Of a stretch of DNA of 41,941 nucleotides, positions 4,279 to 40,220 are shown piece after piece; the stretch's first letter is position 1; each line of letters begins with the position of its first letter. Position numbers and translations under genes: made by a program. Source of the DNA: Kordiimonadaceae bacterium. Lineage in GTDB: Bacteria; Pseudomonadota; Alphaproteobacteria; Sphingomonadales; Emcibacteraceae. Where the stretch lies: contig JABJKT010000159.1 of the NCBI GenBank assembly GCA_018660225.1, positions 1-41,941 on the forward strand, read 5' to 3'. The notes under the pieces are model-generated. The model did no database searches. It was not told the DNA's origin and saw only the letters and a program-made list of their open reading frames with translations.

Positions 4279-4364
4279 TAGTCATAAAGAACATTTTGCC
4301 ATTTTCAGTTTCGTTTAAGCTCCATTTGCTATCAAGGATGTAACGAATAAACGGAGTATTGAAA

Positions 4365-10434: not shown

Positions 10435-10435
10435 T

Positions 10436-15887: not shown

Positions 15888-17099
15888 ATGAAATTAAAAA
15901 ACAAGGTATTGATGGGGGCTGCGTTTGCGGTTTCTCTCATCGGTTTAAGCCTGGGACAATCCATTGTAGGAACAAGTGGCGACGCGACTGCGCAAGCACC
16001 ACAAGCCCCTTCATTCGAAGTTGATCCGTTTTGGCCACAACCACTACCAAATGGCTGGATTTTGGGGAATGTAATCGGTGTTGCTGTTGATGCACGCGAT
16101 CATGTCTATATTGTTCACCGTGCTTGGGGCGAAGGTATCTTTAAACCATTCGCTGAGCTAGGACTTCAGTTAGGTACAAGTATCTGCTGTACACCGGCTC
16201 CTCCTATTGTTGAATTTGATGCGGACGGAAATCTGGTAAGAGCATGGGGCGGCCCTGTTGAAGGCGCACCTTATACTTGGCCCGAATCAAACCACGGTAT
16301 CGAAGTTGACCACAAAGGCAACGTTTGGATCGGCGGAAACGGCCGTGGCGACAGTCATATCCTTAAATTCACAAACGACGGCACATTCATTGCTCAGTAC
16401 GGCACACCTGGTATCGCAACGCCTGACAGCAATGACACATCAAAATTCTCTCGTGTTGCTAAAATCTCCGTTGTTGAAGAAACAAACGAAGCCTTCATCG
16501 CGGATGGTTATGGTAACAGACGTATTGCCGTGCTAGATGCTGATACGGGTGAGTTTAAACGTTACTGGGGTGCTTATGGCGCCAAAGAAATCGTTGATCC
16601 AACTGAAAGATATCGTCATGATCCCTCAACACCACCGTCCAGAACCTTTACTGGTCCTGTTCACTGTGTTGAACCATCAAATGACGGTCTTCTCTATGTT
16701 TGTGACCGTACTTCTGACCGTATTCAAATCTTTGATCGCGCGGGTAACTATAAAAGTGAAATTTTGATCGCCCCTGAAACAGGCTCTCAAGGTTCGACCT
16801 GGGATCTTGATTTCTCACGTGATGAAGCTCAAAAATATATTTACCTAGCTGATGGTCAAAACCAACGTGTTTACATCATTGAGCGTTCTACTATGGAAGT
16901 ACTAACCAAGTTCGGTGGCGGTGGCCGTCAACCTGGTCTTTGGTTTGCTCCACATAGTCTTGCAACCGATTCTAAAGGTAACATCTATACGACTGAAACT
17001 TACGAAGGTAAGCGTATCCAAAAGTTCATTGCTAAAGGAATCACAGCGATTCCTTCAGCGGACCAAGGTGCACTATGGCCAGCGGCCGAGCTTAACTAA
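15888..17099 (+). CDS. Secreted PAL-like NHL beta-propeller, tandem copy 1
   Basis: The 403-residue protein has a signal peptide (cleavage probably near ATAQA, about residue 36) and a six-bladed NHL-type propeller. It shows the site pattern of peptidyl-alpha-hydroxyglycine alpha-amidating lyase: His in NHGIEVD, VHCVEPS and APHSLATD (zinc ligands in PAL), Tyr and Arg in IADGYGNRRI, and Arg in VCDRTSDRI. A Cys-Cys pair (SICCTPAPP, about residues 102-103) is conserved in the twin. PAL cleaves hydroxyglycine amides to an amide plus glyoxylate. No copper hydroxylase partner is visible here, so the natural substrate is unknown. Its 3' half is nearly identical to the next gene. Confidence 0.82.
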   Translation: MKLKNKVLMGAAFAVSLIGLSLGQSIVGTSGDATAQAPQAPSFEVDPFWPQPLPNGWILGNVIGVAVDARDHVYIVHRAWGEGIFKPFAELGLQLGTSICCTPAPPIVEFDADGNLVRAWGGPVEGAPYTWPESNHGIEVDHKGNVWIGGNGRGDSHILKFTNDGTFIAQYGTPGIATPDSNDTSKFSRVAKISVVEETNEAFIADGYGNRRIAVLDADTGEFKRYWGAYGAKEIVDPTERYRHDPSTPPSRTFTGPVHCVEPSNDGLLYVCDRTSDRIQIFDRAGNYKSEILIAPETGSQGSTWDLDFSRDEAQKYIYLADGQNQRVYIIERSTMEVLTKFGGGGRQPGLWFAPHSLATDSKGNIYTTETYEGKRIQKFIAKGITAIPSADQGALWPAAELN

Positions 17100-18540: not shown

Positions 18541-18580
18541 AAAAAAGCCCCCGGTGATGTATTTCACCGGGGGCTTTTAT
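18541..18580. terminator. Bidirectional terminator between NHL copy 2 and PQQ dehydrogenase 1
   Basis: GCCCCCGGTGA (18547-18557) pairs perfectly with TCACCGGGGGC (18564-18574), flanked by an A-run on the left and T-run on the right. It can stop the plus-strand NHL gene and the minus-strand PQQ gene. Confidence 0.93.
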
Positions 18581-18584
18581 TTAT

Positions 18585-20651
18585 TTAGTCATCAGGTAGT
18601 GCGTAAGCCCTGATCTCACCAACATATGAGCCGCCACTTACGGCAACGACAATATATTGTTTGCCGTCCACACTATATGTCATTGGTGATCCTGATTGCC
18701 GTGACGGCATCCATACTTCACCGACCTGCTCGCCTGTCATTTTATTATAAGCCCGCAGCATTGCGCCGCGTTCACGGTCACCCGGGTTGGTAACAAGCAT
18801 ATCACCGGCAATGGCCAATGTTTTTGTCACCATCATGCCAACGCTACCACGCTGACCGGTACGCGGGATGTCCATTCCTTGAAGCTTAGGATGGTTTCTT
18901 ACATTATCGGGAGTTTCACCGTGGGCAAGGCGCCAAAGGATTTCACCTTTTTTCATGTCTATGGCCGCAATGATGCCGTATGGCGGCTTTAATATTGAAA
19001 GCCCCTCTACATTAAGACGCGGAATAACCACCGGTGGGCCATCATAAACCGGATAGCTCACTTCCTTAGGCGAACCTGGGTTTTGACCTGTACCGCCGGC
19101 AAGCGCCATTCTAAAAGGCTGTCCGCTTCTGCCTTGAAGATAGTTTACATTTGAATAACCATCGGGCGGTGGGGAAAGCGAAATACCACCTATGGCCGAT
19201 ACGTTTGCCGGTGCATAAAGAATGCTAGTTTCAGGGTCAAACGCCCCACCAGCCCAGTTTGTACCACCACCGGAATTGCCCAGCGCTATAGCACCAAGCT
19301 TTCCATTCACATCACCGAGTATTGGTGGGTTATAAAGTGTTGCTTCTTCCCACTCCCAACGTTCAAGCTTTTTTAGGGCCTCAGCGCGCATTTCGGGAGT
19401 AAAGTCGATCAGGTCACCGGGCACATCCATTTCAGAACGGCCATAGTTTAATTTATCCATTACCCGTGGTTGGGTCGGCGAATACCATTCACCGGGCACA
19501 TTTCCAGCAGGGACCGCCACTTCATCAATCGGCCAGATCGGCTCGCCAGTAATGCGGTCAAAAACAAAGAGCATGGCCTGTTTGGTTGGAACCGCAAGAA
19601 TTTCACGCATCCGCCCATCAATTTCAACATCCATAACCATTGGTGCCGCAGAAAGATCATGGCCCCAAATTGGATGATGAACCACTTGGAAATGCCAGCG
19701 ATATTCACCAGTGCTCATATCAACGGCAACAATACTTTCAGCAAACAGATTATCGCCAGGACGGTGGCCACCGTAATAATCTGAAGACGGACTTTCTACG
19801 GACAAATAAACCAACTCATTTTTTTCGTCTGCTGTTATTTGTGTCCACACACCGGTACTGCCATTGCTTTCCCATGAATTATCAAGCCATGTATCATTAC
19901 CAAACTGACCCGGGCGCGGAATAGGATCAAACTGCCATACTAATTTACCGGTTCTCGTATCGAATGCACGAACCAGTCCTTTAGTGTTATTATAATTATC
20001 AATGGTTAGCCCTTCTTTCATGGCATTACCGATAATGATCATATCGCCAACCACTGTTGGTGCTGCATGAAGACCAATTTCGCCTGTCACCAGGTCAATC
20101 TGAACTTCATTGCCCTGAACGGCACCGAGTTTTAGATCAAGAACGCCACTCCCGTTTTCACCAAAATCCGCAATCGGCACGCCGGTATGAGCATTAAGGC
20201 TTACAAGCTTATAACCGGTTGTGACATAAAAAATACGGTCATCACCATTTCCGTCTGACCAATAAGAAAGCCCGCGACCAGATAGCTGCCTTGGGGCCAT
20301 TCCGCCGCGAAGACCTTCGTCCATACTATGCAGCCACTTTAGCTCGCCCGTCTGCGCATCTAGCGCAAAAGCGGTTCTTCGAGTGCCGCCCGTTCCGTAA
20401 AGCATGCCGTCCACCATAAGCGGTGTTACTTCAAGCTTATATTCAGGGCGTGAGCCAAGGTTTTTTGTTGAAAATGACCAGGCCAGTTCCAGATCTTCAA
20501 AGTTATCCGCATTGATCTGATCAAGCGGTGAATAACGAGAGCCTTTTACATCGCCCGCATAGTGGGGCCATTCGCCGTTTGAAGTGTCCTGTGCGTAGGA
20601 CGAAATAAGACCGGCACAAAATGTTGCCAGCAGGGTAAGGGTAAATTTCAT
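18585..20651 (-). CDS. PQQ-dependent dehydrogenase paralog 1, probable catalytic Asp replaced by Gly
   Basis: The 688-residue secreted quinoprotein has a signal peptide of about 20 residues (ending SSYAQ). A propeller related to the membrane glucose/quinate dehydrogenase group follows (SGRGLSYWSDG near 125, TPDNVRNHP, ending RAYALPDD), without the N-terminal membrane domain of Gcd. Where the other four copies read IWDHDLS, this one reads IWGHDLS: Gly330 replaces the Asp aligned with the catalytic base of the family (Asp466 in E. coli Gcd). The Lys of PTKQ (357), aligned with Gcd Lys493, remains. It may be inactive, altered, or a binding protein. It is the last gene of the array and retains an intact reading frame. 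Confidence 0.87.
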   Translation of the reverse strand: MKFTLTLLATFCAGLISSYAQDTSNGEWPHYAGDVKGSRYSPLDQINADNFEDLELAWSFSTKNLGSRPEYKLEVTPLMVDGMLYGTGGTRRTAFALDAQTGELKWLHSMDEGLRGGMAPRQLSGRGLSYWSDGNGDDRIFYVTTGYKLVSLNAHTGVPIADFGENGSGVLDLKLGAVQGNEVQIDLVTGEIGLHAAPTVVGDMIIIGNAMKEGLTIDNYNNTKGLVRAFDTRTGKLVWQFDPIPRPGQFGNDTWLDNSWESNGSTGVWTQITADEKNELVYLSVESPSSDYYGGHRPGDNLFAESIVAVDMSTGEYRWHFQVVHHPIWGHDLSAAPMVMDVEIDGRMREILAVPTKQAMLFVFDRITGEPIWPIDEVAVPAGNVPGEWYSPTQPRVMDKLNYGRSEMDVPGDLIDFTPEMRAEALKKLERWEWEEATLYNPPILGDVNGKLGAIALGNSGGGTNWAGGAFDPETSILYAPANVSAIGGISLSPPPDGYSNVNYLQGRSGQPFRMALAGGTGQNPGSPKEVSYPVYDGPPVVIPRLNVEGLSILKPPYGIIAAIDMKKGEILWRLAHGETPDNVRNHPKLQGMDIPRTGQRGSVGMMVTKTLAIAGDMLVTNPGDRERGAMLRAYNKMTGEQVGEVWMPSRQSGSPMTYSVDGKQYIVVAVSGGSYVGEIRAYALPDD

Positions 20652-20701
20652 TTTTTTCTCTTATCTTTAAATTTATTAATTGGAAAAATGTTGGGATAGT
20701 T

Positions 20702-20729
20702 CAAGGGGGCCGATTAAATGGCCCCCTTG
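20702..20729. terminator. Hairpin after PQQ dehydrogenase 2
   Basis: CAAGGGGGCC (20702-20711) pairs perfectly with GGCCCCCTTG (20720-20729), 10 nt downstream of the minus-strand gene ending at 20739. The minus-strand side lacks a long T-run, so termination may be partial and allow read-through into paralog 1. Confidence 0.7.
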
Positions 20730-20738
20730 TTTATAAAA

Positions 20739-22820
20739 TTAATCATCGGGTAGAGCATAAGCCCTAAATTCACCCGGGTAAGCGCCGCCACTGACGGAAA
20801 CAATTATATATTGTTTGCCGTCAACCATATAAGTCATCGGTGAGCCGGTCTGCCCGGCGGGCATCCATACTTCACCAACTTCGACGCCGGTTTCTTTGTT
20901 ATAAGCGCGCAGCATAGCACCGCGCTCACGGTCACCGGGGTTGGTCACAATTTGATCTGCAAGGATAATCAGTGTTTTTGTCACCACGAGGCCAATTTCA
21001 ATTTTCTGACCTGTACGCGGAATATCCATGCCAGCAAGTTTGGGATGGAAGCGGACATTATCCGGCGTTTCACCGTGGGGGATTTGCCACTTCAATTTGC
21101 CTTCATTCATGTCAATGGCAGCAAGCACACCGTAGGGCGGCTTAAGGATCGATAGTCCTTCTACGTTAAGTGAAGGCATAGGTGGGCGCACGGCAGAAAG
21201 GTCTTCAAATTCGCTTACAACGGGAGGCGCGTCCGGATTCTGTCCGGTTCCGCCGGCGTATCTCATACGAAATGGCTCACCTATACGGCCGGACATATAA
21301 TTCACATTTGAAAAACCTTCAGGCGGCGGTGCGAGTGAAAGATTATCAAGCGATGATGATTGTGCCTGTGCGTAAAGAATACCTGTTTCCGGATCAAACG
21401 AAGCACCGGGCCAGCTTGAACCGCCGCCCGTTGCGCCGATATTAATAGCGCCAAGCACGCCATTTACATCACCAAGCAGTGGCGGATTATATCTGGCATC
21501 ATTATCCCAGTTCCAGCGATCCATTTTACCGAGTGCCTCTGCACGCATTTCCGGTGTAAAATCAATCAGATCATCAGGCAGGTTAAGCTTGCCGCGCCCA
21601 TACATCAAATCCATCGGTGCGTGGGGTTGGGTCGGTGAATACCATTCACCCGGTACGTTTCCTATTGGCACGGCTACTTCCGGAATATCCCAGATCGGCT
21701 CACCGGTTACGCGGTCAAAGGCGTAAATGAATGATTGTTTTGTCGGCAGGGCGATAATTTCGCGCATCTCACCGTTAACTTCAACATCCATAATTAGGGG
21801 GGCGGATGATAAGTCATGATCCCAAATCGGATGATGAACCACCTGAAAATGCCAGCGATATTCACCGGTATTCAGATCAACCGCGACAAGGCTTTCGCCG
21901 AACAGGTTATTACCGGGGCGGTGACCACCATAAAAATCTGATGACGGGCTTTCTATTGGTAAGAACACAAGGCCGTTTTTCTCATCAACTGTTATTTGGG
22001 TCCAGACACCAGTATTACCGTTTCGCTCCCATGAATTATCAAGCCAAGTATCATTTCCAAATTGTCCGGGTCTTGGAATAGGGTCAAACTGCCATATTAA
22101 TTTACCGGTTCTAATATCAAAGGCTCGGACAAGACCTTTGGTATTATTATAATTATCAATGGTCATGCCTTCTTTCATGGCAGAACCAACAATGATCATA
22201 TCGCCAACAACGGTTGGTGTTGAATGAAGGCCTATTTCTCCGCTTACCAGATCGATCTGTACTTCATTGCCCTGAACCACGCCGACTTTAAGATCAAGAA
22301 TACCGTTTCCATCAATGCCGAAGCTATTAATAGGAACGCCTGTGTGGGCACTAAGGGCTATAAGTTTATATCCTGTAGTTACATAATAAACCCGGTCATC
22401 ACCATTTCCATCTGACCAGTATGATAGGCCGCGGCCGGATAGCTGACGCGGGGCAAGGCCGGCACGTAGACCTTCCTCCATACTGTGGATCCATTTTAGC
22501 TCACCCGTGGCACCGTCAAGGGCGATGGCGGCGCGTCTTGTGCCCGCAGTGGCATAGACCATGCCACCTGCCATTAGCGGTGTCACTTCAAGTTTATATT
22601 CAGCGCGCGATCCAAGATTTTTTGTGGAAAAAGACCAGGCAAGCTCCAGATCTTCAAAATTATCAGCATTGATCTGATCAAGCGGTGAATAGCGAGAGCC
22701 TTTAATATCCCCCGTATAATGGTGCCATTCACCACCATCGGTGCCCGGTTCTTGTGCCTGCGCAAAACCGCTAGCCAGCACCGTTAATGCCATTAAAGAT
22801 GTCTTTAAATTAAACTTCAT
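20739..22820 (-). CDS. PQQ-dependent dehydrogenase paralog 2
   Basis: The start is ATG 22820, preceded on the minus strand by AGGGAAGAG; the longer frame to 22871 would run through the upstream terminator. The 693-residue product has a signal peptide ending about GFAQA. It has the full quinoprotein pattern (SGRGLSYWSDG, IWDHDLSSAP with the catalytic-type Asp, LPTKQSF with Lys, ending RAYALPDD). It should oxidise an alcohol or sugar in the periplasm and pass electrons to a cytochrome or quinone. It differs from the others in the central segment RWNWDNDARYNPPLLG and the loop AQSSSLDNLSLAPPP. The leader carries a TGTTACA word (plus-strand 22849-22855). Confidence 0.9.
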   Translation of the reverse strand: MKFNLKTSLMALTVLASGFAQAQEPGTDGGEWHHYTGDIKGSRYSPLDQINADNFEDLELAWSFSTKNLGSRAEYKLEVTPLMAGGMVYATAGTRRAAIALDGATGELKWIHSMEEGLRAGLAPRQLSGRGLSYWSDGNGDDRVYYVTTGYKLIALSAHTGVPINSFGIDGNGILDLKVGVVQGNEVQIDLVSGEIGLHSTPTVVGDMIIVGSAMKEGMTIDNYNNTKGLVRAFDIRTGKLIWQFDPIPRPGQFGNDTWLDNSWERNGNTGVWTQITVDEKNGLVFLPIESPSSDFYGGHRPGNNLFGESLVAVDLNTGEYRWHFQVVHHPIWDHDLSSAPLIMDVEVNGEMREIIALPTKQSFIYAFDRVTGEPIWDIPEVAVPIGNVPGEWYSPTQPHAPMDLMYGRGKLNLPDDLIDFTPEMRAEALGKMDRWNWDNDARYNPPLLGDVNGVLGAINIGATGGGSSWPGASFDPETGILYAQAQSSSLDNLSLAPPPEGFSNVNYMSGRIGEPFRMRYAGGTGQNPDAPPVVSEFEDLSAVRPPMPSLNVEGLSILKPPYGVLAAIDMNEGKLKWQIPHGETPDNVRFHPKLAGMDIPRTGQKIEIGLVVTKTLIILADQIVTNPGDRERGAMLRAYNKETGVEVGEVWMPAGQTGSPMTYMVDGKQYIIVSVSGGAYPGEFRAYALPDD

Positions 22821-22854
22821 ATGCTCTTCCCTAATTATTTTGCTCTTATGTAAC

Positions 22855-22888
22855 AAAGCCCCCAAGATCATATGACCTTAGGGGCTTT
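22855..22888 (-). terminator. Terminator after PQQ dehydrogenase 3, loop GATCATATGACC
   Basis: AAAGCCCC pairs with GGGGCTTT (22881-22888), extended inward by an AAG/CTT pairing around GATCATATGACC. It follows the minus-strand gene ending at 22917 and lies in the leader of paralog 2. The loop is the same as in the terminator at 25075-25112. Confidence 0.8.
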
Positions 22889-22916
22889 GGTGCAAGATTT
22901 TAGAAAGGATTGCTTA

Positions 22917-25034
22917 TTAATCGTCAGGCAGAGCATAGGCCCTGAACTCACCGGAATAAGCACCACCACTGACGGAAACCATAATATATTGTTTACCGTC
23001 GATGCTATATGTCATTGGCGAGCCCGATTGTCCTGCTGGCATCCAAACTTCGCCAACATTCTCACCTGTCATTTTATCATAGGCACGAAGCATTGCGCCG
23101 CGCTCACGGTCACCGGGGTTAGTGATCTGCTGATCACCTACAATGACGAGGGTTTTAGTGACAACCACACCCACATTGGCACGTTGGCCTGTGCGCGGAA
23201 TATCCATTCCTTGTAGTTTAGGATGGTTACGAACGTTATCCGGTGTTTCGCCGTGAGGCACACGCCAAAGAACTTTACCGGCATTCATATCAATCGCTGC
23301 AAGAACACCATATGGCGGCTTGAGTATTGAAAGGCCTTCAACATTCAGGCTTGGTACTGGCACACGCGGACCAGTGTAAACAGGGTAGTTCACTTCTTTT
23401 GGTGCGTCTGGGTTTTGACCTGTACCCGAAGCATTTGCCATGCGGAACGGTTGACCGACCCGGCCGGAAATATAATTCACGTTTGAATATCCTTCCGGTG
23501 GTGGGGTCAGGGTAAGCCTGTCAATAATAGCGGTCGCTGCAGGGGCATAGACAATCCCGGTTTCAGGATCAAACGATGCACCCGGCCAGTTGGTTCCGCC
23601 CGTAGTGGCACCAACATTGATGGCGCCAAGCATACCGTTAACATCGCCAGCTATTGGCGGGTTATACATGGTGCCGTCTTTCCAGACCCAGCGCTCAAGA
23701 TTTTTAAGAGCCTGCTCACGCATTTCAGGGGTAAAGTCAATCAAGCCATCCGGCACAATCATTTCCGCACGACCATACATTAAGTCCTGAGGAGGTCTCG
23801 GCTGAGTTGGTGAATACCATTCGCCCGGTACGTTTCCTTGTGGAACCGCGACTTCGGGAATTGGCCAAATCGGCTCACCGGTTAGGCGGTCAAAGGCATA
23901 AATGAATGATTGTTTTGTCGGCAGGGCGATAATTTGTCTATCAACTCCGTCAATTTCAACATCCATAATAAGTGGTGCAGATGATAAGTCATGATCCCAA
24001 ATCGGATGATGAACCACCTGGAAATGCCAGCGATATTCACCTGTGTTCATATCAACAGCGACAAGGCTTTCACCAAACAGGTTATCACCGGGACGGTGAC
24101 CACCGTAAAAGTCCGATGATGGGCTTTCAACGGCTAGGAAAACAAGTTCGTTTTCTACGTCGACTGTGATTTGTGTCCAGACACCAGCGTTACCGTTTCT
24201 TTCCCATGAATTATCAAGCCATGTATCGTTACCGAACTGACCAGGACGTGGAATGGGATCGAACTGCCACACAAGTTCACCATTTCTGACGTTGTAGGCA
24301 CGAACAAGACCTTTAGTGTTGTTGTAGTTATCAATGGTCATGCCTTCTTTCATGGCTGAACCAACAATAATCATATCACCAACAACCGTTGGTGTAGCAT
24401 GAAGACCAATTTCACCTGTTACCAGATCGATCTGTACTTCGTTACCTTGAACGGCACCGACTTTCAGATCAAGGATGCCGTCACCAGTAGGACCAAATTC
24501 TGCAATTGGAACACCAGTATGTGCATCAAGTGAAATCATTCTGTAACCAGTTGTTACGTAAATAACACGGTCATCACCATTACCGTCTGACCAATAAGAA
24601 AGGCCACGACCGGATAATTGGCGCGGAGCCATGCCGCCGCGAAGGCCTTCGACCATGCTGTGCATCCATTTAAACTCGCCCGTAACACCGTCAAGAGCGA
24701 TAGCGGTACGGCGTGTTCCTGCCGTAGCATATAGCATGCCGTCAACCATAATCGGTGTTACTTCAAGCTTATACTCAGAGCGTGAACCAAGGTTCTTTGT
24801 TGAAAAGGACCAGGCAAGCTCCAGATCTTCAAAGTTATCGGCATTGATCTGATCAAGTGGTGAATAACGGGAGCCTTTAATATCACCCGTATAATATGGC
24901 CATTCGCCATTCGAAGTGTCCATGGCCGCGCGCGGGGCGCTAGCCTCAGGCTCTTCTGCCTGTTGTGGATCAGGTGCGCATCCTGCAGTCAGTATCGCAC
25001 ATGCCAGAAAAGGCGTTAATAAATTAAATTTCAT
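22917..25034 (-). CDS. PQQ-dependent dehydrogenase paralog 3, lipoprotein form
   Basis: The 705-residue product differs from its sisters by a lipoprotein signal, lipobox LTAGC with Cys19, then a linker rich in Gln, Glu and Ala before the propeller (starts about residue 42). It should be membrane-anchored, facing the periplasm. Catalytic-type residues are present (IWDHDLSSAP, LPTKQSF), as are SGRGLSYWSDG and the ALPDD ending. GGGAG stands 6 nt before the ATG. The second residue of the lipid-sorting region is Ala, which does not suggest inner-membrane retention by the E. coli Asp+2 rule. It is adjacent to the cytochrome c gene, which would suit electron transfer. Confidence 0.9.
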   Translation of the reverse strand: MKFNLLTPFLACAILTAGCAPDPQQAEEPEASAPRAAMDTSNGEWPYYTGDIKGSRYSPLDQINADNFEDLELAWSFSTKNLGSRSEYKLEVTPIMVDGMLYATAGTRRTAIALDGVTGEFKWMHSMVEGLRGGMAPRQLSGRGLSYWSDGNGDDRVIYVTTGYRMISLDAHTGVPIAEFGPTGDGILDLKVGAVQGNEVQIDLVTGEIGLHATPTVVGDMIIVGSAMKEGMTIDNYNNTKGLVRAYNVRNGELVWQFDPIPRPGQFGNDTWLDNSWERNGNAGVWTQITVDVENELVFLAVESPSSDFYGGHRPGDNLFGESLVAVDMNTGEYRWHFQVVHHPIWDHDLSSAPLIMDVEIDGVDRQIIALPTKQSFIYAFDRLTGEPIWPIPEVAVPQGNVPGEWYSPTQPRPPQDLMYGRAEMIVPDGLIDFTPEMREQALKNLERWVWKDGTMYNPPIAGDVNGMLGAINVGATTGGTNWPGASFDPETGIVYAPAATAIIDRLTLTPPPEGYSNVNYISGRVGQPFRMANASGTGQNPDAPKEVNYPVYTGPRVPVPSLNVEGLSILKPPYGVLAAIDMNAGKVLWRVPHGETPDNVRNHPKLQGMDIPRTGQRANVGVVVTKTLVIVGDQQITNPGDRERGAMLRAYDKMTGENVGEVWMPAGQSGSPMTYSIDGKQYIMVSVSGGAYSGEFRAYALPDD

Positions 25035-25074
25035 TTCAGTCTCCCGTATTATTGATTTTGTTTTTTTGTAAATA

Positions 25075-25112
25075 AAAAAGCCTCAAAGATCATATGACCT
25101 TTGAGGCTTTTT
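25075..25112 (-). terminator. Terminator after the cytochrome c gene, loop GATCATATGACC
   Basis: AAAAAGCCTCAAAG pairs with CTTTGAGGCTTTTT around the loop ATCATATGAC. A minus-strand T-run follows. It is 27 nt from the cytochrome stop and separates that gene from paralog 3. Confidence 0.93.
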
Positions 25113-25139
25113 CGCAAGTTGCTATTCTAGAAGAGATTA

Positions 25140-25583
25140 TTATTCCGCAGGCTTAAGAGCATTCCATTGAATTCTCTTCAGTTGAGAATTTTGATATGGA
25201 AGAGGTCGCTGACCTTCAGGGAAGTTATTTTTTGACATAATATAGGCTAGAATGTCTGCTTTTATCTTACGTGATGTGCCCTTTGGATCATCAAGTGGCA
25301 TTGTTTCGCGTAGACGTTGGAAGAGAATGCTCACCGGCATACCGTCCCAGTTATAAACAAAAGCGCCCTGAATTAAGGTTGGGGCTTCTTCAATGCCCTG
25401 CATTTGAGCACCGTGACAGGCGGAACAGCGTTCTTGATAGCTTTCTTCACCGCGTACTGCTTGTGCTTTTGTATAAACGCCGTCCCAGACATTGGCGCCT
25501 TGCTGTGCCATAGCAGAATTCTGCATGGTTAGGCCTAAAATACCAGTGGCTACAAAAAGTGAAATTCTATGTGTTAGTTTCAT
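25140..25583 (-). CDS. Secreted monohaem c-type cytochrome
   Basis: The 147-residue protein has a signal peptide ending near SAMAQQ (residue 27). One haem-binding motif Cys-Ser-Ala-Cys-His lies at about residues 53-57, followed by a plausible axial Met (ETMPLDDP). The region around the haem (GEESYQERCSACHGAQMQG) resembles cytochromes paired with PQQ dehydrogenases, where they accept electrons from reduced PQQ. It is the only cytochrome among five dehydrogenase genes and could serve all of them. It has its own leader (TGTTACT at 25671-25677) and a strong terminator, so it can be expressed alone. Confidence 0.92.
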   Translation of the reverse strand: MKLTHRISLFVATGILGLTMQNSAMAQQGANVWDGVYTKAQAVRGEESYQERCSACHGAQMQGIEEAPTLIQGAFVYNWDGMPVSILFQRLRETMPLDDPKGTSRKIKADILAYIMSKNNFPEGQRPLPYQNSQLKRIQWNALKPAE

Positions 25584-25762
25584 TTTAATCTCGTCTTGCT
25601 TGTTTTAAAGTATAATCCTATTCAATGATTATGTCATTTTTTGGATATTATCGTTCAAATTAACTCAGTTTGTTACTTATACACATCTAATATTAAATCA
25701 AACTGAAAATGGCAAGTAAAAGGGGGTTACTTATTAAATAACCCCCTTAAACATTTTAAGTA
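25584..25762. other. Intergenic region between paralog 4 and cytochrome c
   Basis: These 179 nt hold the terminator of paralog 4 (25720-25748) and the presumed promoter of the cytochrome gene. No open reading frame or RNA was recognised. Confidence 0.6.
25720..25748 (-). terminator. Hairpin after PQQ dehydrogenase 4
   Basis: AAGGGGGTTA (25720-25729) pairs perfectly with TAACCCCCTT (25739-25748), 14 nt past the minus-strand stop at 25763, with a short T-run after it in that direction. Confidence 0.85.
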
Positions 25763-27853
25763 TTAATCGTCAGGCAGAGCATAAGCTCTAAACTCACCAG
25801 CATAAGCACCACCACTTACGGAAACAATGATATATTGTTTGCCGTCGATGGCATATGTCATTGGTGAACCTGATTGTCCTGCTGGCATCCAAAGTTCGCC
25901 AACATTCTCACCTGTCATTTTATCATAAGCACGAAGCATTGCGCCGCGCTCACGGTCACCAGGGTTTGTCACCCTTGGATCGCCTAGGATAAGTAAGGTT
26001 TTAGTGACAACAGTTCCAACGCTACCGCGCTGACCAGTTCTTGCAACATCTATACCAGCCAGTTTTGGATGGTTGCGCACATTATCCGGTGTTTCACCGT
26101 GAGCAACGCGCCAAAGTACTTTACCGGCTTTCATGTCTATCGCTGCAATCACGCCATATGGTGGCTTAAGGATATTAAGACCATCAACATTTAGTGAAGG
26201 AACAGCCACACGTGGACCATCAAATACAGGATAGTTCACTTCTTTCGGTGCGTCAGGGTTTTGTCCTGTACCGGCTGCATTTCTCATACGGAACGGCTCA
26301 CCAATACGGCCAGACATATAGTTCACGTTTGAATAACCTTCCGGTGGAGGGGCAAGTGAAATACCGCCAATAGCACCGGTTGTAGCAGAAGCATAAACGA
26401 TACCTGTTTCAGGATCGAATGCACCGCCCGGCCAGTTTGTACCGCCGCCAGCATTACCAAGGTTGATACCACCAAGCATACCGTTAACATCACCAGCAAT
26501 CGGTGGGTTATAAAGTGTGCCGTCTTTCCAGACCCAGCGCTCAAGATTTTTAATGGCTTGTGCGCGCATTTCAGGGGTGAAGTCGATAAGACCATCAGGA
26601 TAATTAAGTTCAGGATTACCGTATAAAAGGTCATCGGATGGACGTGGTTGAGTTGGTGAATACCACTCACCAGGTACGCTACCTTGTGGGACTGCTACTT
26701 CTGGAATTGGCCAAATCGGCTCACCAGTTACGCGGTCAAATACATATACAAATGCCTGTTTTGTTGGTAGGGCAAGAATTTGTCTGTCTGCACCATCGAT
26801 TTCAACATCCATAATTAGCGGTGCTGATGATAGGTCATGATCCCAGATCGCATGATGAACCACTTGGAAATGCCATTTATATGCACCAGTGTTCAGATCA
26901 ACGGCTACGATACTTTCACCAAACAGGTTATCACCAGGACGGTGACCGCCATAAAAATCTGATGATGGGCTTTCTATTGAAAGGAAAACAAGTTCGTTTT
27001 CTTCGTCAACTGTAATCTGTGTCCAAACGCCGGCGTTACCATTTCTTTCCCATGAATTATCAAGCCAAGTATCGTTACCGAACTGACCAGGGCGTGGAAT
27101 AGGGTCAAACTGCCATACTTTCTTACCAGTACGAACATCAAATGCACGAACAAGTCCTTTGGTATTGTTATAGTTATCTATGGTCATGCCTTCTTTCATG
27201 GCAGAGCCAACAATAATCATATCGCCAACAACCGTTGGTGTCGCATGAAGGCCAATTTCACCTGTTACCAGATCGATCTGTACTTCGTTGCCTTGAACGG
27301 CGCCGATTTTCAGATCAAGGATACCATTGCCGTCTGTACCGAAACTATTAATCGGAACACCCGTATGGGCATTAAGGGCAATAAGGCGGTAACCAGTTGT
27401 TACATAATAAATTCGGTCATCACCGTTTCCATCAGTCCAATAAGAAAGACCACGGCCGGAAAGCTGACGTGGGGCCATGCCGCCACGAAGACCTTCTTCC
27501 ATGCTGTGAATCCATTTTAGCTCGCCAGTTGAGCCGTCAAGAGAAATGGCTGCACGACGCGTTCCTGCAGTAGCATATAACATACCGTCAATCATGATCG
27601 GTGTTACTTCAAGTTTATATTCAGAACGTGTACCAAGGTTTTTTGTTGAAAAAGACCAAGCTAATTCCAGATCTTCAAAGTTATCCGCATTAATCTGATC
27701 AAGTGGTGAATAACGTGATCCTTTGATATCACCAGTGTAGTGATGCCATTCACCATTAGCGGTGCCTGGCTCATCTGCTTGGGCAAATTGGGATGATAGG
27801 CCAGTGGCTATCATCGTCAGTGCCATTACAGATTTCTTTAAATTAAATTTCAT
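25763..27853 (-). CDS. PQQ-dependent dehydrogenase paralog 4
   Basis: ATG 27853 follows CGGGAGAAGAAA on the minus strand and gives MKFNLKKSVM, matching the sister genes; an upstream in-frame start at 27913 adds a non-homologous stretch. The 696-residue product has a signal peptide ending near AQADE. The propeller has IWDHDLSSAP (preceded by HA rather than HP), LPTKQAF, SGRGLSYWTDG and the ALPDD ending. The middle of the protein (NLERWVWKDGT) matches paralog 3, but the loop ATTGAIGGISLAPPP resembles paralog 1. It should be a soluble periplasmic quinoprotein using a sugar, alcohol or cyclic polyol, type unknown. Confidence 0.9.
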   Translation of the reverse strand: MKFNLKKSVMALTMIATGLSSQFAQADEPGTANGEWHHYTGDIKGSRYSPLDQINADNFEDLELAWSFSTKNLGTRSEYKLEVTPIMIDGMLYATAGTRRAAISLDGSTGELKWIHSMEEGLRGGMAPRQLSGRGLSYWTDGNGDDRIYYVTTGYRLIALNAHTGVPINSFGTDGNGILDLKIGAVQGNEVQIDLVTGEIGLHATPTVVGDMIIVGSAMKEGMTIDNYNNTKGLVRAFDVRTGKKVWQFDPIPRPGQFGNDTWLDNSWERNGNAGVWTQITVDEENELVFLSIESPSSDFYGGHRPGDNLFGESIVAVDLNTGAYKWHFQVVHHAIWDHDLSSAPLIMDVEIDGADRQILALPTKQAFVYVFDRVTGEPIWPIPEVAVPQGSVPGEWYSPTQPRPSDDLLYGNPELNYPDGLIDFTPEMRAQAIKNLERWVWKDGTLYNPPIAGDVNGMLGGINLGNAGGGTNWPGGAFDPETGIVYASATTGAIGGISLAPPPEGYSNVNYMSGRIGEPFRMRNAAGTGQNPDAPKEVNYPVFDGPRVAVPSLNVDGLNILKPPYGVIAAIDMKAGKVLWRVAHGETPDNVRNHPKLAGIDVARTGQRGSVGTVVTKTLLILGDPRVTNPGDRERGAMLRAYDKMTGENVGELWMPAGQSGSPMTYAIDGKQYIIVSVSGGAYAGEFRAYALPDD

Positions 27854-28140
27854 TTTCTTCTCCCGTTTATATATTTGACCAGACATAATTGTTATGTTGT
27901 AACAAAAAGTCAAGGTTTATTAGACTTTAACAGAGTTAAGTGTAGTTTTTTTAGTTATTTAAGGCAATAAAAAGAAAATACCCCTCAAACATAGACCATC
28001 CAGTGCCCACAAAAAGAAAATTTTATGAGGTGATTCTATATTTATTTATATCTGATATGAGGAGATTTTTGGACAGCGGTGCCGTCCCGGCATAAAAAAA
28101 GTCCAAGGGAGCCATTCTCAGGCCCCCTTGGTATATAATA
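27854..28140. other. Intergenic region between PQQ paralogs 5 and 4
   Basis: These 287 nt contain the leader and presumed promoter of paralog 4 near its start and the terminator of paralog 5 at the left end. TGTAACA is at 27898-27904, with a further TGTTAT-like half beside it. A short frame at 28023-28232 overlaps paralog 5 and shows no coding signs. Confidence 0.6.
28094..28131 (-). terminator. Terminator after PQQ dehydrogenase 5
   Basis: CCAAGGGAGCC (28103-28113) pairs with GGCCCCCTTGG (28121-28131) with one mismatch. On the minus strand it is followed by a run of seven T residues, a standard intrinsic terminator 10 nt past the stop. Confidence 0.92.
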
Positions 28141-30231
28141 TTAATCGTCAGGTAAGCTATATGCTCTAAACTCACCAGCATAAGCACCACCACTAACGGC
28201 AACAATAATATATTGCTTGCCGTCGATGGCATATGTCATTGGCGAACCTGATTGTCCTGCTGGCATCCAAACCTCGCCAACATTCTCACCTGTCATTTTA
28301 TCATAAGCACGGAGCATTGCGCCGCGCTCACGGCTACCAGGGTTAGTCACCAGCATATCACCGACAATCACAAGAGTTTTAGTAACAACCACACCAACCG
28401 TTGATGGCTGACCTGTGCGCGGAATATCTAGACCAGCCAGTTTAGGATGGTTGCGTACATTGTCCGGAGTTTCTCCGTGCGGCACTTTCCAAATCACTTC
28501 ACCTTTATTCATGTCGATCGCAGAGATCACACTGTAAGGCGGTTTAAGAATAGAAAGACCTTCAACATTCAGGCTTGGCACAGCAACGCGCGGACCAGTG
28601 TAAACAGGATAGGTCACTTCTTTCGGCGCGTCAGGGTTTTGACCTGTACCGGCAGCATTTCTCATGCGGAACGGTTGACCAATTCGCCCAGCGATATAAT
28701 CCACATTTGAATAACCTTCGGGTGGAGGTGTCATTGAAAGGTTGGCAATGAATATATTACCAGCAGGGGCATAGACAATACCTGTTTCAGGATCGAACGA
28801 AGCACCCGGCCAGTTTGTACCACCGTTTGTTGCACCGATATTGATAGCACCAAGCATGCCATTTACATCGCCGAGAAGTGGTGGGTTATACATACCACCA
28901 TTATCCCAGTTCCATAGATCCATCTTATCAAGAGCCTCTTGACGCATTTCAGGCGTAAAGTCAATTAGGTCATCAGGCAGAACAAGTTTACCACGACCAT
29001 AATGCAGGCTCTCTGGTGGCATAGGCTGGGTAGGTGACGTAAACTCGCCCGGGATCGTACTTTGTGGGACGGCCACTTCAGGAATTGGCCAAATCGGCTC
29101 ACCGGTTAGGCGGTCGAAGGCATAGATGTATGCTTGCTTAGTCGGAAGGGCGATAATTTCACGCATTTTTCCATCAACTTCAACATCCATAATAAGTGGT
29201 GCAGATGATAAGTCATGATCCCAAATCGGATGATGAACTACTTGGAAATGCCAGCGATATTCACCAGTGTTCATATCAACAGCAACAAGGCTTTCACCAA
29301 ACAGGTTATCACCAGGACGGTGACCACCGTAAAAGTCAGATGATGGGCTTTCAACGGCTAGGAAAACAAGTTCGTTTTTCTCGTCTACTGTGATCTGTGT
29401 CCAGACACCAGTGTTACCGTTTCTATCCCATGAATTATCAAGCCATGTATCATTACCGAACTGACCAGGACGGGGAATAGGATCAAACTGCCAAACTAGT
29501 TCACCGCTGCGAACATCATACGCACGAACAAGACCTTTGGTATTATTGTAGTTATCAATGGTCATGCCTTCTTTCATGGCAGAGCCAACAATTACAATAT
29601 CGCCAACAACCGTTGGTGTTGCATGAAGACCAATTTCACCGGTTACCAGATCAATTTGAACTTCGTCACCCTGTACAGCGCCGACCTTAAGATCAAGGAT
29701 GCCGTCACCAGTGGGGCCGAAACTGCTAATAGGAACACCCGTATGGGCGTTTAGGGAAATCATTCTGTAACCAGTTGTTACGTAAATAACCCGGTCATCA
29801 CCATTGCCGTCTGACCAATAAGAAAGACCGCGACCGGAAAGCTGACGTGGAGCCATGCCGCCGCGAAGACCTTCTGCCATGCTGTGAATCCATTTTAGCT
29901 CACCAGTTGAGCCATCAAGAGCAATTGCGGCGCGTCTTGTTCCGGCAGTTGCATAAAGCGTGCCGTCAATCATAATCGGCGTTACTTCGAGTTTATACTC
30001 AGAGCGTGTACCAAGATTTTTTGTTGAAAAAGACCAGGCGAGTTCCAGATCTTCAAAGTTATCCGCATTAATTTGATCAAGCGCAGAATAGCGAGATCCC
30101 TTAATGTCCCCAGTGTAGTGGTGCCATTCACCATTTTCGGTGCCTAGCTCGTCTGCTTGGGCAATACCAGATGTCAGGCCAGTCGCCAGCATCGTAAGTG
30201 CTATTACAGATTTTTTAAAGTTAAGCGTCAT
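28141..30231 (-). CDS. PQQ-dependent dehydrogenase paralog 5
   Basis: The 696-residue product starts at ATG 30231 after GGGAGAGAAGC on the minus strand. It has a signal peptide ending near AQADE. The propeller keeps IWDHDLSSAP, LPTKQAY, SGRGLSYWSDG and ends RAYSLPDD. Its first third matches paralog 3 (VIYVTTGYRMISL, FGPTGDGILDLK) while the centre matches paralog 2 (YGRGKL..PDDLIDF, WNWDN, NPPLLGDVNG), a mosaic. It also has an unusual VPQSTIPGEFTSPTQP where the others have PGEWYSPTQP. It is the first gene of the array and lies divergent to the TonB receptor. TGTTACA is in its leader at 30269-30275. Confidence 0.9.
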   Translation of the reverse strand: MTLNFKKSVIALTMLATGLTSGIAQADELGTENGEWHHYTGDIKGSRYSALDQINADNFEDLELAWSFSTKNLGTRSEYKLEVTPIMIDGTLYATAGTRRAAIALDGSTGELKWIHSMAEGLRGGMAPRQLSGRGLSYWSDGNGDDRVIYVTTGYRMISLNAHTGVPISSFGPTGDGILDLKVGAVQGDEVQIDLVTGEIGLHATPTVVGDIVIVGSAMKEGMTIDNYNNTKGLVRAYDVRSGELVWQFDPIPRPGQFGNDTWLDNSWDRNGNTGVWTQITVDEKNELVFLAVESPSSDFYGGHRPGDNLFGESLVAVDMNTGEYRWHFQVVHHPIWDHDLSSAPLIMDVEVDGKMREIIALPTKQAYIYAFDRLTGEPIWPIPEVAVPQSTIPGEFTSPTQPMPPESLHYGRGKLVLPDDLIDFTPEMRQEALDKMDLWNWDNGGMYNPPLLGDVNGMLGAINIGATNGGTNWPGASFDPETGIVYAPAGNIFIANLSMTPPPEGYSNVDYIAGRIGQPFRMRNAAGTGQNPDAPKEVTYPVYTGPRVAVPSLNVEGLSILKPPYSVISAIDMNKGEVIWKVPHGETPDNVRNHPKLAGLDIPRTGQPSTVGVVVTKTLVIVGDMLVTNPGSRERGAMLRAYDKMTGENVGEVWMPAGQSGSPMTYAIDGKQYIIVAVSGGAYAGEFRAYSLPDD

Positions 30232-30696: not shown

Positions 30697-32769
30697 ATGA
30701 AATTGAAGAATTTAGCTTTACTGGGCACAAGCATTTTCAGCCTGGTACCAGCCTTTGCAATGGCGCAAGACATCGCAGAAGAAGAAATTATAACAGTAAC
30801 TGGCACAAGAAGTGTACGGCTGGCAACAGATGTTGTTGGTAATCAGGCTTCCGTATCGGGATCTGAAATAGAATTTCTAAGTCCCACTCATATAAATGAG
30901 GCCCTTCAGGGCATAGCGGGTGCGAATATTTCCAGAAATAACGGCCAAGAATCCCTTATTTCACTACGCTCACCAATTTTTACCGGCGCAGGGGCATGCG
31001 GTGCTTTCCTGACGGCTCAGGACGGCGTTCCGCTTAGGGCCGCCGGCTTTTGTAATGTTAACGAGCTATTTGAAAGCTTTTCCGAGCAGGCAGGCCGCAT
31101 TGAAATAGTGCGTGGTCCGGGCTCAGTGCTTTATGGCTCAAACGCCATGCATGGTATTATTAATATCGTTTCTAAAGGAGTGGGAGACGCCAGCTCATCT
31201 GCCAGTATGGAAGCAGGTTCATGGGGCTATCTTAAATTTAATGCCTCCGGCGCTTTTAAGGATGGTAACAATGGATTTCGAGTAACCGGCAGCGTCATGC
31301 ATGACGGCGGTTATATTGAAGAGAGCGGATTTAACCAGCAAAAAGGTATGCTAAGGCATGAATATGATGATGGGAACTGGGAGATTACAACAAATTTCAT
31401 GGTTACTAACCTGGATCAGGAAACCGCAGGTTATCTTGTCGGACTTGATAGTTATAAAGATCCCGCCCTTGCTAAAACCAATGCAAATCCAGAAGCTTAT
31501 AGAAAAGCTAAGTCCTTTCGCTACTGGTCCACAATTTCAAAAGATATAACGGACAATGTGCGCTGGCAGTTCTCGCCTTATGTAAGATCATTGGATATGG
31601 AATTTCTGATGCATTTCCTTCCCGGTGCACCGCTAGAGGAAAATGAACAGAAAAGCGCAGGCTTTCAAAATGGCTTTTATATAAATGAAGGCAGTAATTT
31701 TGAAATTATAGCCGGTTTTGACGGCGAAATGGCAAAAGGGGAGCTGAAGCAAACCCAGGCAAATGCCATAACAGGCAGCGCGTTTCTCGCCGGAACAATT
31801 CCAGCGGGAAAACAATATGATTATGAAGTGAACACAAAACTGATCGCTGGTTTTGTACGCGCTGATTTTGATGTTAATGATCAGCTCTCTGTTATCGGTG
31901 GTGTTCGTGCAGAGCATATGAAATATGACTATAACAACAGAATGAATAGTGGTCGCGTTGATGAAAATGGTGACACATGTGGTTTTGGCGGTTGTCGCTA
32001 TACCCGCCCTGGGGACCGTGAGGACAGCTTTAATAATGTCTCATTCGAAGCGGGACTTCTTTATAAAATTGATGACAATAACAGCTTTTTCAGTCGTTTC
32101 AGCCGCGGTTTTCGCGCACCGCAAGCGGCAGAGCTTTACCGTCTTCAAACCTCACAACTTGTTGCTGATATTGATAGCGTGAAGCTGGACAGTTATGAAG
32201 CAGGCTTGCGCGGTAAAATTGACGCGTTCACATACGAAGTTTCAGCCTTTTATATGAAAAAAGACAATGTAATTTTTCAGGATAACCGCGTAAATGTCGA
32301 TAACGGAAAATCCAAGCATACGGGTGTTGAAGCGATGTTTGAATATCAGTTCCCAATTGATGTCAGCATCCGCGCGAGCGGTAGTATCGCCAAACATGAG
32401 TATGATTTCGACCAATTTACCGGCGATATAAACTGGAATGGACTGGATATCGATACTGCTCCCAATGATTTTGGTAGCATTCAATTAAACTGGGCGCCTG
32501 CTGATAAAGTTAAAGCAGGGCTTGAGTGGATCTGGATGGGCTCATACGCTATGGAGCCAACCAACGCGTTTATTTATGAAGGTCATAACTATTTTAATCT
32601 GCGCGTTGAAGCCGAAGCGATGGAAAATGTTGATGTATTCTTACGGGTTATGAATATAACCAACGTAAGATACGCCGAACGCGCTGACCATGCCGCCTTT
32701 GGTGTTGGCGAGCGTTATTTCGTCGGTAGGCCACGCGGATTTTATGGTGGGGCCCGCGTCAGGTTCTAA
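30697..32769 (+). CDS. TonB-dependent outer membrane receptor
   Basis: The 690-residue protein has a signal peptide ending near FAMAQ. A TonB-box-like IITVTGTR segment (about residues 31-38) follows, then a plug domain (RIEIVRGPGSVLYGSNAMHGIINIVSKG, about 133-160) and a beta-barrel ending in aromatic ARVRF. The plug contains two cysteines in GACGAFL and GFCNVNE that could form a disulfide. It should import a scarce or large compound across the outer membrane using TonB energy. Its position beside the PQQ array and two acylases suggests a substrate handled by those enzymes. The ribosome site is weak. A terminator follows at 32791-32827. Confidence 0.92.
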   Translation: MKLKNLALLGTSIFSLVPAFAMAQDIAEEEIITVTGTRSVRLATDVVGNQASVSGSEIEFLSPTHINEALQGIAGANISRNNGQESLISLRSPIFTGAGACGAFLTAQDGVPLRAAGFCNVNELFESFSEQAGRIEIVRGPGSVLYGSNAMHGIINIVSKGVGDASSSASMEAGSWGYLKFNASGAFKDGNNGFRVTGSVMHDGGYIEESGFNQQKGMLRHEYDDGNWEITTNFMVTNLDQETAGYLVGLDSYKDPALAKTNANPEAYRKAKSFRYWSTISKDITDNVRWQFSPYVRSLDMEFLMHFLPGAPLEENEQKSAGFQNGFYINEGSNFEIIAGFDGEMAKGELKQTQANAITGSAFLAGTIPAGKQYDYEVNTKLIAGFVRADFDVNDQLSVIGGVRAEHMKYDYNNRMNSGRVDENGDTCGFGGCRYTRPGDREDSFNNVSFEAGLLYKIDDNNSFFSRFSRGFRAPQAAELYRLQTSQLVADIDSVKLDSYEAGLRGKIDAFTYEVSAFYMKKDNVIFQDNRVNVDNGKSKHTGVEAMFEYQFPIDVSIRASGSIAKHEYDFDQFTGDINWNGLDIDTAPNDFGSIQLNWAPADKVKAGLEWIWMGSYAMEPTNAFIYEGHNYFNLRVEAEAMENVDVFLRVMNITNVRYAERADHAAFGVGERYFVGRPRGFYGGARVRF

Positions 32770-35157: not shown

Positions 35158-35201
35158 GCCTATAAGAAAAGAACTGGCATTTGCAAAGAAGGAAACAAAG
35201 A

Positions 35202-37553: not shown

Positions 37554-38322
37554 TGCGCGACGTGGGGATAATAAAAACTTCGCCATTTTTTTCCAGACGG
37601 GTCGCTTTAACCTGATAAGCCTTTAGCAGATTTTCATCGCTTAGAACATCTTCGGGGAGCCCTTTTGAAATGATTTGTCCTTCGTTGAGGAGTATCAGTT
37701 CATCACAGTATTTCTGGGCAAAATTAACATCATGAAGCACCAGTAAAACCCCATGACCAGTTTCGGCCAGCTCTTTTAAAATATCCATAATTTTCATCTG
37801 GTGATAAGGGTCCAGTGCTTCGATTGGCTCATCCGCCAGTAAAAATTCGCAGCCCGTAACAATTGCCCGGGCCAGCATGGCGCGCGCTCTTTCCCCGCCT
37901 GATAATGTGGTGGTACTGCGCGAGACAAGATGATCGACATCGGTTTTTTTCATGGCGTCCAAGGTAAGTGTCTGATCAAGGGTGCTGGTTGATTGCCACG
38001 GCGATAAATGCGGAATACGCCCTAGTGATACAAGATGACCAACCGTCAGCGGCCAGTGGACGGGGGCGCCTTGCGCTGCATAGGATATTTTCTGAGCCCG
38101 TTCTTTTATGCTCCAACTATTAATATCTTTACCGTCCAGCGATATATCGCCGCTTGCACCGTCAATAAGCCCTAATATGGATTTAATCAGGATGCTTTTC
38201 CCTGCGCCGTTTGGGCCGATCAACCCGACCAGCTTACCGCTCGGCACTTCAAAGGACACATCCGATAAAATGCGGTTTTCTTCCAGCGTGACATTTAAGT
38301 TATTTATGCTGAGGACCGTCAC
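37540..38322 (-). CDS. ABC transporter ATP-binding protein, BtuD/FecE type
   Basis: The 260-residue ATPase starts at a GTG (38322) overlapping the permease stop (GTGA). It has Walker A GPNGAGKS, Q-loop AAQGAP, signature LSGGERARAMLARA, Walker B FLLADEP and the switch His in LVLHDVNFA. It is of the class that energises siderophore, haem and cobalamin import. It pairs with the permease, binding protein and outer-membrane receptor encoded upstream on the same strand. No export-type fusion or extra domain is present. The C-terminal coding end overlaps the end of acylase 2, which is unlikely to affect either protein. Confidence 0.92.
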   Translation of the reverse strand: MTVLSINNLNVTLEENRILSDVSFEVPSGKLVGLIGPNGAGKSILIKSILGLIDGASGDISLDGKDINSWSIKERAQKISYAAQGAPVHWPLTVGHLVSLGRIPHLSPWQSTSTLDQTLTLDAMKKTDVDHLVSRSTTTLSGGERARAMLARAIVTGCEFLLADEPIEALDPYHQMKIMDILKELAETGHGVLLVLHDVNFAQKYCDELILLNEGQIISKGLPEDVLSDENLLKAYQVKATRLEKNGEVFIIPTSRINQD

Positions 38323-39287: not shown

Positions 39288-39325
39288 AGGGAGTTTCTTT
39301 TGATTTATTAAGGGGGAGGAATAAA

Positions 39326-40192: not shown

Positions 40193-40220
40193 CAAACTTG
40201 TTCCTTAAAACTTGGCCCTT

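Follow-up and report, generated by a model that had tools for sequence, protein, structure and literature searches.

Large repertoires and clusters of pyrroloquinoline quinone (PQQ)-dependent dehydrogenases are already known. In the ped cluster of Pseudomonas, the PQQ alcohol dehydrogenases PedE and PedH are encoded together with the c-type cytochrome PedF, according to the excerpted text of PMC12997753. The available part of PMC11996626 describes putative lanthanide-type glucose dehydrogenases (GDHs) from the ocean that have no membrane domain, in which a D-x-D motif is read as a mark of lanthanide binding and which occur in low numbers per genome; other genomes hold up to 70 lanthanide-type PQQ dehydrogenases. 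For the receptor PqqU, a survey detected the signature in a single alphaproteobacterium, and the class was inferred to rely mostly on its own PQQ synthesis (PMC12124388, as excerpted). Here, we describe a tandem array of GDH-like quinoprotein genes in a 41,941-nucleotide (nt) stretch of DNA from a Kordiimonadaceae bacterium (Alphaproteobacteria). This stretch, the window, is one whole contig (JABJKT010000159.1) of a 3.04-Mb genome (GCA_018660225.1) in 219 contigs that is 94.6% complete.

Five intact open reading frames (ORFs) for PQQ-type quinoproteins lie on the minus strand at 18585-30231 and encode 688, 710, 705, 716, and 696 amino acids (aa; P1 to P5). Each protein matched PF01011 end to end (profile positions 1 to 595), with E values of 6.2e-160 to 7.8e-165 and scores of 534 to 550 bits against a cut-off of 26.7. 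P2 to P5 are 73 to 77% identical to P1. The DNA copies are in register, one 300-nt core is up to 95% alike, and the longest exact stretch common to any two copies is 60 nt. Collapse or false expansion of the array is therefore unlikely. The probable starts of P2 and P4 are later than those of their longest ORFs, at an MKFNLK that begins at residue 18 in P2 and residue 21 in P4. P3 carries a lipobox-like LTAGC, and the N-termini of P1, P2, P4, and P5 are Sec-like, as read by eye without a signal-peptide predictor. These observations support most of the first-pass annotation of this DNA, which was made from the sequence alone and had proposed five intact genes on one strand, one of them for a lipoprotein and the others with Sec signals, that serve periplasmic oxidation. 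It had also described five tandem paralogs in one array; the five copies stand, but their row is interrupted by a cytochrome gene between P4 and P3 that it had missed. Of the landmarks that it called near-identical, SGRGLSYW and PTKQ are present in all five proteins. IWDHD and ALPDD are each present in only four, since P5 ends in SLPDD and P1 reads IWGHD, so that the loss of the Asp at the catalytic position of P1 had been hidden. ALPDD also occurs close to the C-terminus of E. coli Gcd, which has WDMD at the place of the array's WDHD. Therefore, two of the four landmarks are partly traits of the wider family.

We searched the genome of the window (G000) and 39 relatives with an alignment of the five copies at an E value of ≤1e-50. 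Matches were found in 16 of the 40 genomes, 13 of which, our own included, belong to the same genus; the genus records are metagenome-assembled genomes labelled Emcibacteraceae, Kordiimonadaceae, or Alphaproteobacteria. When a cytochrome gene was allowed between two copies, at least two adjacent copies were present in 11 of the 13 genus genomes, the other two (G004 and G006) being cut by contig ends, and at least three were present in five (G000, G001, G003 counting a fragment, G011, and G012). In the complete, single-contig genome G012, three copies are in tandem and a fourth is separate. Copies outside the array, among other neighbors, are also present in G000 (a sixth copy, on contig C8 at 25904-27973), in G001 (probably one gene split over two contig ends), and in G007 (L092). 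The neighbors of these stand-alone copies showed no common theme. In our genome, C32 also encodes a PF01011 protein of more distant relation, and C205 gives a weak match. Outside the genus, 3 of 27 genomes (G013, G028, and G037) had a match and none had an adjacent pair. Proteins from outside the genus, taken by tblastn only from places matching two short peptides, were 35 to 41% identical, and two adjacent copies lie at one such locus (L039). At the level of the class, 34 of the 115 Alphaproteobacteria sampled had a PF01011 match at an E value of ≤1e-40. Besides our genome, only one of the other 114 had three PF01011 genes inside 5 kb; with no more than 10 candidates scored per genome, this count is a lower bound. 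In that genome the three tandem genes lie at G065:C30:19807-24438, and PqqC and PqqE are present. The locus is old and is conserved in the genus.

Next to this distribution we set the relationships of the copies. In a protein tree of 41 rows, P1, P2, and P5 fell in clades with copies from other genomes (supports of 100/100, 100/100, and 100/99, respectively); the P2 clade holds copies from G003 and G007, and the P5 clade holds copies from G002, G008, and G011. P3 stands alone at the base of a clade of P2, P3, and P5, and P4 lies outside that clade (98/99). Since P1, P2, and P5 cluster with copies of other genomes, most of the duplications predate the species compared. The clade of P1 (100/100) is of a Gly type and includes seven further copies (from G001, G004, G005, G008, G009, G010, and G011). 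Six of these eight copies lie at the end of the array that faces NHL-repeat genes. The G005 copy is cut by a contig end; on a different contig, the NHL end holds a fragment that matches with 95.7% identity across 420 bases. The G004 copy is preceded by other genes. The copy at the NHL end has Asp in G007 and G012.

The ratio of nonsynonymous to synonymous change (dN/dS) had a median of 0.045 in the Gly-type clade and of 0.049 to 0.054 in the four other classes, with the P2-class value resting on one pair. Synonymous divergence (dS) was beyond measure in 15 of 28 Gly-type pairs and in 2 of 3 P2-class pairs, and so the copies can be called only constrained. The dS separating P1 and P2 from the other copies of the array is 1.4 to 1.7. 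Synonymous identity was patchy between P3 and P5 (P = 0.004) and between P2 and P3 (P = 0.001; 2000 permutations), with P values of 0.066 to 0.50 for the other 8 of the 10 window pairs and of 0.0475 to 0.84 for five between-genome controls. This patchiness suggests some gene conversion, as later exchange between P3 and P5 and between P2 and P3. Residues 391-510 of P1 differ by 0.33 to 0.34 between window copies versus 0.09 to 0.10 within the four ortholog classes, a 3.2- to 3.9-fold greater divergence. The array copies look like old specialized paralogs with some gene conversion. Recent amplification was rejected on the protein tree, though the dS values point the other way, and the earlier proposal of active diversification is not supported. 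Its companion claim, that the array is not decaying, agrees with a median dN/dS of about 0.05, at a dS near saturation. Its view that such arrays are unusual holds at the level of the class. The first-pass annotation had also reckoned with arrays being both common and described in the same lineage. Common they are within the genus, but our literature searches found no published description of this syntenic GDH-like tandem array with a cytochrome gene and a Gly-type member.

We aligned the array proteins with E. coli Gcd and with 18 proteins from outside the genus. Gcd D354 is replaced by Glu and K493 is kept as Lys in all five window proteins, while the C8 copy has Ser at the D354 position. 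The Asp pair D466/D468 is kept in P2 to P5 and is Gly/Asp in P1. We take D466 to be the catalytic Asp, and the roles of the other Gcd residues, K493 included, are likewise assumed. The D-x-D motif thus reads D-H-D in P2 to P5 and G-H-D in P1; E. coli Gcd also has D-x-D. All four proteins from the same order (L055, L056, L057, and L070) have Asp at the D466 position. At loci L026-L041, from other orders and phyla, the catalytic Asp position holds Asp in 3 of 14 proteins and Asn in 11 (IWNYD type); the Asn-bearing proteins may be a large group of altered quinoproteins.

The best-scoring named family for all five proteins was TIGR03074 (glucose/quinate/shikimate), at 342 to 354 bits against a cut-off of 832.65 that was not reached. 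The matches begin only at model positions 134 to 149, the N-termini are single signal-like stretches by eye, and the N-terminal membrane domain of that family was not found in P1 to P5. TIGR03075 (methanol/ethanol PQQ dehydrogenase) scored 200 to 219 bits, below its cut-off of 480.05, and TIGR04528 (acido-empty-quinoprotein group A) scored 211 to 237 bits, below its cut-off of 650. With family scores below the cut-offs, PQQ binding by the array proteins stays a prediction. Sequence matches of P5 were all PQQ dehydrogenases, and for the predicted fold of P1 the best 30 of 50 PDB matches by Foldseek were all PQQ dehydrogenases.

The cytochrome gene between P4 and P3 matches PF00034 at 25.0 bits, over the cut-off of 21.3, and PF13442 at 24.3 bits, under the cut-off of 27. 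Array cytochrome genes are present in our genome and in six congeners (G001, G003, G005, G007, G011, and G012), some of them cut by contig ends, and in five of the remaining genus genomes the array itself is cut by contig ends. At L032, a related small cytochrome lies directly 3' of a distant homolog. The array-internal cytochrome is likely the electron acceptor of the dehydrogenases.

We then asked where the genus obtains PQQ. PqqC (TIGR02111) was over the cut-off in none of the 40 genomes, with weak matches of 42 to 65 bits against a cut-off of 240 in three genomes from outside the genus. No genome passed the cut-off for PqqE (TIGR02109) either; 39 of the 40 gave weak matches, and so did every one of the 14 control genomes. 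PQQ producers were recognized by PqqC and PqqE only; PqqA, PqqB, and PqqD were not searched. The same searches scored class-level genomes over the cut-off (PqqC in 31 of 190 and PqqE in 8 of 58) and are therefore able to find these proteins. Thus, PQQ is probably scavenged from outside by this genus. None of the 40 genomes had a PqqU over the cut-off when up to 22 candidates were scored in each. The TonB-dependent receptor encoded next to P5 was ruled out as PqqU: it scored 50.1 bits with NF041535 against a cut-off of 1200, and in place of the signature Y/F/W99, R304, and R365 it has Gly, a gap, and Asn, respectively, in a MAFFT alignment of ten orthologs in which the barrel part is unsure. 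Its AlphaFold model, with a mean predicted local distance difference test score (pLDDT) of 47, was too poor for a fold search. E. coli PqqU itself gave only matches in the N-terminal plug region, in 6 of the 13 genus genomes, and the match in our own genome was the BtuB-like gene of the window. PQQ, if the genus uses it, may enter by diffusion through porins or by an importer of an unknown kind. Among the 34 sampled Alphaproteobacteria with a strong PF01011 match, ours included, 17 had no PqqC over the cut-off (6 listed without a match and 11 inferred among the 139 unlisted genomes without one). Some of these may be assembly gaps, and one (G047) has a partial PqqE.

We consider it reasonably probable that the array is an old set of functionally separated periplasmic quinoprotein dehydrogenases that oxidize several different alcohols, sugars, or polyols. 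The enzymes would be soluble or lipid anchored and related to the catalytic domain of the membrane glucose dehydrogenase, and we infer that they would hold PQQ and a Ca or lanthanide ion on the propeller axis. In P2 to P5, substrate oxidation would be aided by the first Asp of IWDHD, and electrons would pass to the array-encoded cytochrome and on to the respiratory chain. P1 probably has altered or no dehydrogenase activity and is still under selection. Substrate specificity is likely set C-terminal to PTKQ (at about residues 390-510 of P1), because this region varies most between copies but stays much more constant within the orthologs of each copy. PQQ would be taken up from outside, and the adjacent TonB receptor and acylases more likely import and trim a substrate. 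Several observations pull the other way. The array enzymes score far under the NCBIfam cut-offs of every named PQQ dehydrogenase family, with an "empty quinoprotein" model (TIGR04528) among the families matched. Gcd H262, N607, and D730 are not conserved, and so the pocket differs from the one in glucose dehydrogenase. Asn stands at the D466 position in 11 of the 18 proteins from outside the genus (Asp in 7). The AlphaFold model of P1 is only fair (mean pLDDT of 73, from a 27-row alignment), and three stretches in or adjoining the presumed specificity region (444-448, 454-460, and 487-537) have a pLDDT below 50. G009 has a two-copy array, apparently complete from receptor to NHL genes, without a cytochrome gene. 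The pairing of P4 with the G003 copy in first position is weakly supported (82/29). Most comparisons have a dS close to saturation, and among P3, P4, and P5 dS is 0.79 to 0.91, below the medians of the P4 and P5 ortholog classes (1.56 and 1.79). Taken alone, these dS values would argue for a younger P3-P4-P5 group.

That low dS is also what one would expect if the copies shared one reaction and were kept to raise the amount of a single periplasmic dehydrogenase, and the long runs of identical synonymous codons in P3-P5 and P2-P3 fit such gene dosage as well. However, only 2 of the 10 pairs reach P < 0.01, and correcting for the 10 tests raises these values to about 0.01 and 0.04; P1, P2, and P5 sit in cross-genome clades, and residues 391-510 are far more constant within classes than between copies. 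We therefore regard dosage as unlikely, although it is the alternative we take most seriously. Some or all of the copies might instead be PQQ-free, "empty" propellers with another periplasmic role, as the TIGR04528 matches, the lack of PqqC and PqqE over the cut-off in the genus, the Gly of P1, and the Asn of the proteins outside the genus would allow. TIGR04528 stays far below its cut-off, though, and the glucose dehydrogenase model TIGR03074 scores higher; P2 to P5 keep the Asp pair, the Lys, and the Glu, and a cytochrome gene lies within the array. We find empty propellers improbable. Slightly more doubtful still is a self-contained PQQ-scavenging module, in which the TonB receptor would be an importer of PQQ or metal-PQQ that does not belong to the PqqU family and P1 would be kept for a job other than dehydrogenation, such as holding PQQ in the periplasm and handing it on. 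An artefact of assembling a metagenome bin is suggested by the 219 contigs and by arrays elsewhere that often stop at contig ends. But exact identity between any two copies never runs beyond 60 bases, the same layout recurs in other assemblies, and a one-contig genome has three tandem copies, which makes an artefact very improbable. Functional separation of old dehydrogenases thus remains the reading we prefer.

The surroundings of the array are conserved (Table 1). Its P5 end adjoins the TonB receptor and PA1 in all 10 genus genomes that show that end (G000, G001, G003, G004, G005, G006, G007, G009, G010, and G012), and PA2 follows PA1 in the nine that reach that far. At the other end, visible in 10 genomes (G000, G001, G003, G005, G007, G008, G009, G010, G011, and G012), the array directly adjoins a single NHL-propeller gene or a pair of them in 9; in G005, it is separated from the NHL genes by a 293-aa ORF that resembles no window protein. 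A HupE-like gene is next beyond the NHL end in all 10. NHL1 and NHL2 are tandem duplicates, with DNA 78 to 79% identical over the stretches found, and some congeners have only one of them. A GC-rich hairpin lies 3' of each of the six genes of the array (P1 to P5 and the cytochrome gene; 6/6, with no shuffled control). Because a hairpin follows each gene, the array looks unlike one plain operon, and the copies may be induced separately. A pattern scan gave terminator-like sites at two of these six positions, behind P5 and behind P1; the latter site is on the plus strand, where it ends NHL2. The region has 6 terminator-like sites, fewer than its shuffles (12.2).

Table 1. Features of the quinoprotein array and its flanks in the window
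Feature	Position	Strand	Family match or remark
Secreted NHL-repeat propeller protein NHL1	15888..17099	+	PF01436; in congeners, beside the array end opposite P5
Secreted NHL-repeat propeller protein NHL2, convergent with P1	17301..18521	+	PF01436
Hairpin after P1, 15-pair stem	18543..18578	-	Also at end of convergent NHL2; may serve either
P1 quinoprotein, 688 aa, Sec-like N-terminus	18585..20651	-	PF01011, E 1.2e-161
P1 Gly330 (IWGHD) at catalytic Asp position	codon 19662-19664	-	Motif reading
Hairpin after P2	20702..20729	-	
P2 quinoprotein, 710 aa as longest ORF	20739..22871	-	PF01011
Hairpin after P3	22854..22889	-	
P3 quinoprotein, 705 aa, lipobox-like N-terminus	22917..25034	-	PF01011; lipobox by eye
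Hairpin after cytochrome gene	25074..25113	-	
Periplasmic c-type cytochrome of 147 aa with a single CSACH haem motif	25140..25583	-	PF00034; between P4 and P3
Hairpin after P4	25720..25748	-	
P4 quinoprotein, 716 aa as longest ORF	25763..27913	-	PF01011
Hairpin after P5, then T run	28103..28131	-	
P5 quinoprotein, 696 aa	28141..30231	-	PF01011
TonB-dependent receptor, divergent from array	30697..32769	+	PF00593/PF07715
Penicillin-amidase family hydrolase PA1	32906..35098	+	PF01804, E 1.3e-108; syntenic
Penicillin-amidase family hydrolase PA2	35181..37553	+	PF01804, E 8.8e-141; syntenic

Beyond the acylases, the genes at 37540-41762 read as btuD, btuC, btuF, and btuB (corrinoid or metal-chelate uptake), and several congeners have them in synteny. 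Of the encoded proteins, the two like BtuB and BtuD were searched against families, and neither reached a cut-off among the matches listed. At 4359-12414, the window holds an efflux-type block of an outer-membrane factor, a membrane-fusion protein, a resistance-nodulation-division (RND) pump, and a two-component system, named by reading without a family search.

The locus is real, conserved, somewhat unusual, and of a known enzyme superfamily. As a conserved natural panel of paralogs that vary at the catalytic position (Asp in four and Gly in one, and outside the genus Asn in 11 of the 18 aligned proteins), the array is useful for asking what the residue at that position does. It also adds an alphaproteobacterial genus that has several quinoproteins but no PqqC or PqqE matches. 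E. coli Gcd with PqqU-dependent scavenging (PMC12124388, from the excerpt seen) resembles this situation in pairing a PQQ-type enzyme with no PQQ synthesis pathway found; it differs in PqqU, which was not over the cut-off in the 40 genomes here, and the array's receptor lacks the signature. With half of the 34 PF01011-bearing Alphaproteobacteria without PqqC over the cut-off, scavenging, or an importer of an unknown kind, may be commoner in this class than thought.

Gcd/mGDH (membrane GDH; TIGR03074) aligns with the array proteins at WDxD, at K493, and at the C-terminal ALPDD. However, the array proteins score less than half of the 832.65-bit cut-off, lack the N-terminal membrane domain, and do not keep H262, N607, and D730. 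By sequence and by fold, the nearest solved structures are quinohaemoprotein and type I PQQ alcohol dehydrogenases (PDB 8gy2, 1kb0, 1yiq, and 9m2c), but these are about 20% identical, and the array's small cytochrome is a separate protein. The ped cluster, as far as the excerpted text of PMC12997753 describes it, likewise has more than one PQQ dehydrogenase together with a c-type cytochrome. Its two dehydrogenases are of the alcohol type and lie among transporters, regulators, and a PQQ biosynthesis operon, whereas the array has five GDH-like tandem copies in a genome where PqqC and PqqE were not found. The ocean GDHs, compared by their description in the available part of PMC11996626 and not on its tree, share with the array proteins the GDH-like character, the lack of a membrane domain, and, in P2 to P5, the D-x-D motif. 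They differ from them in number, as our genome has six copies with five in tandem, and from P1 in its G-x-D.

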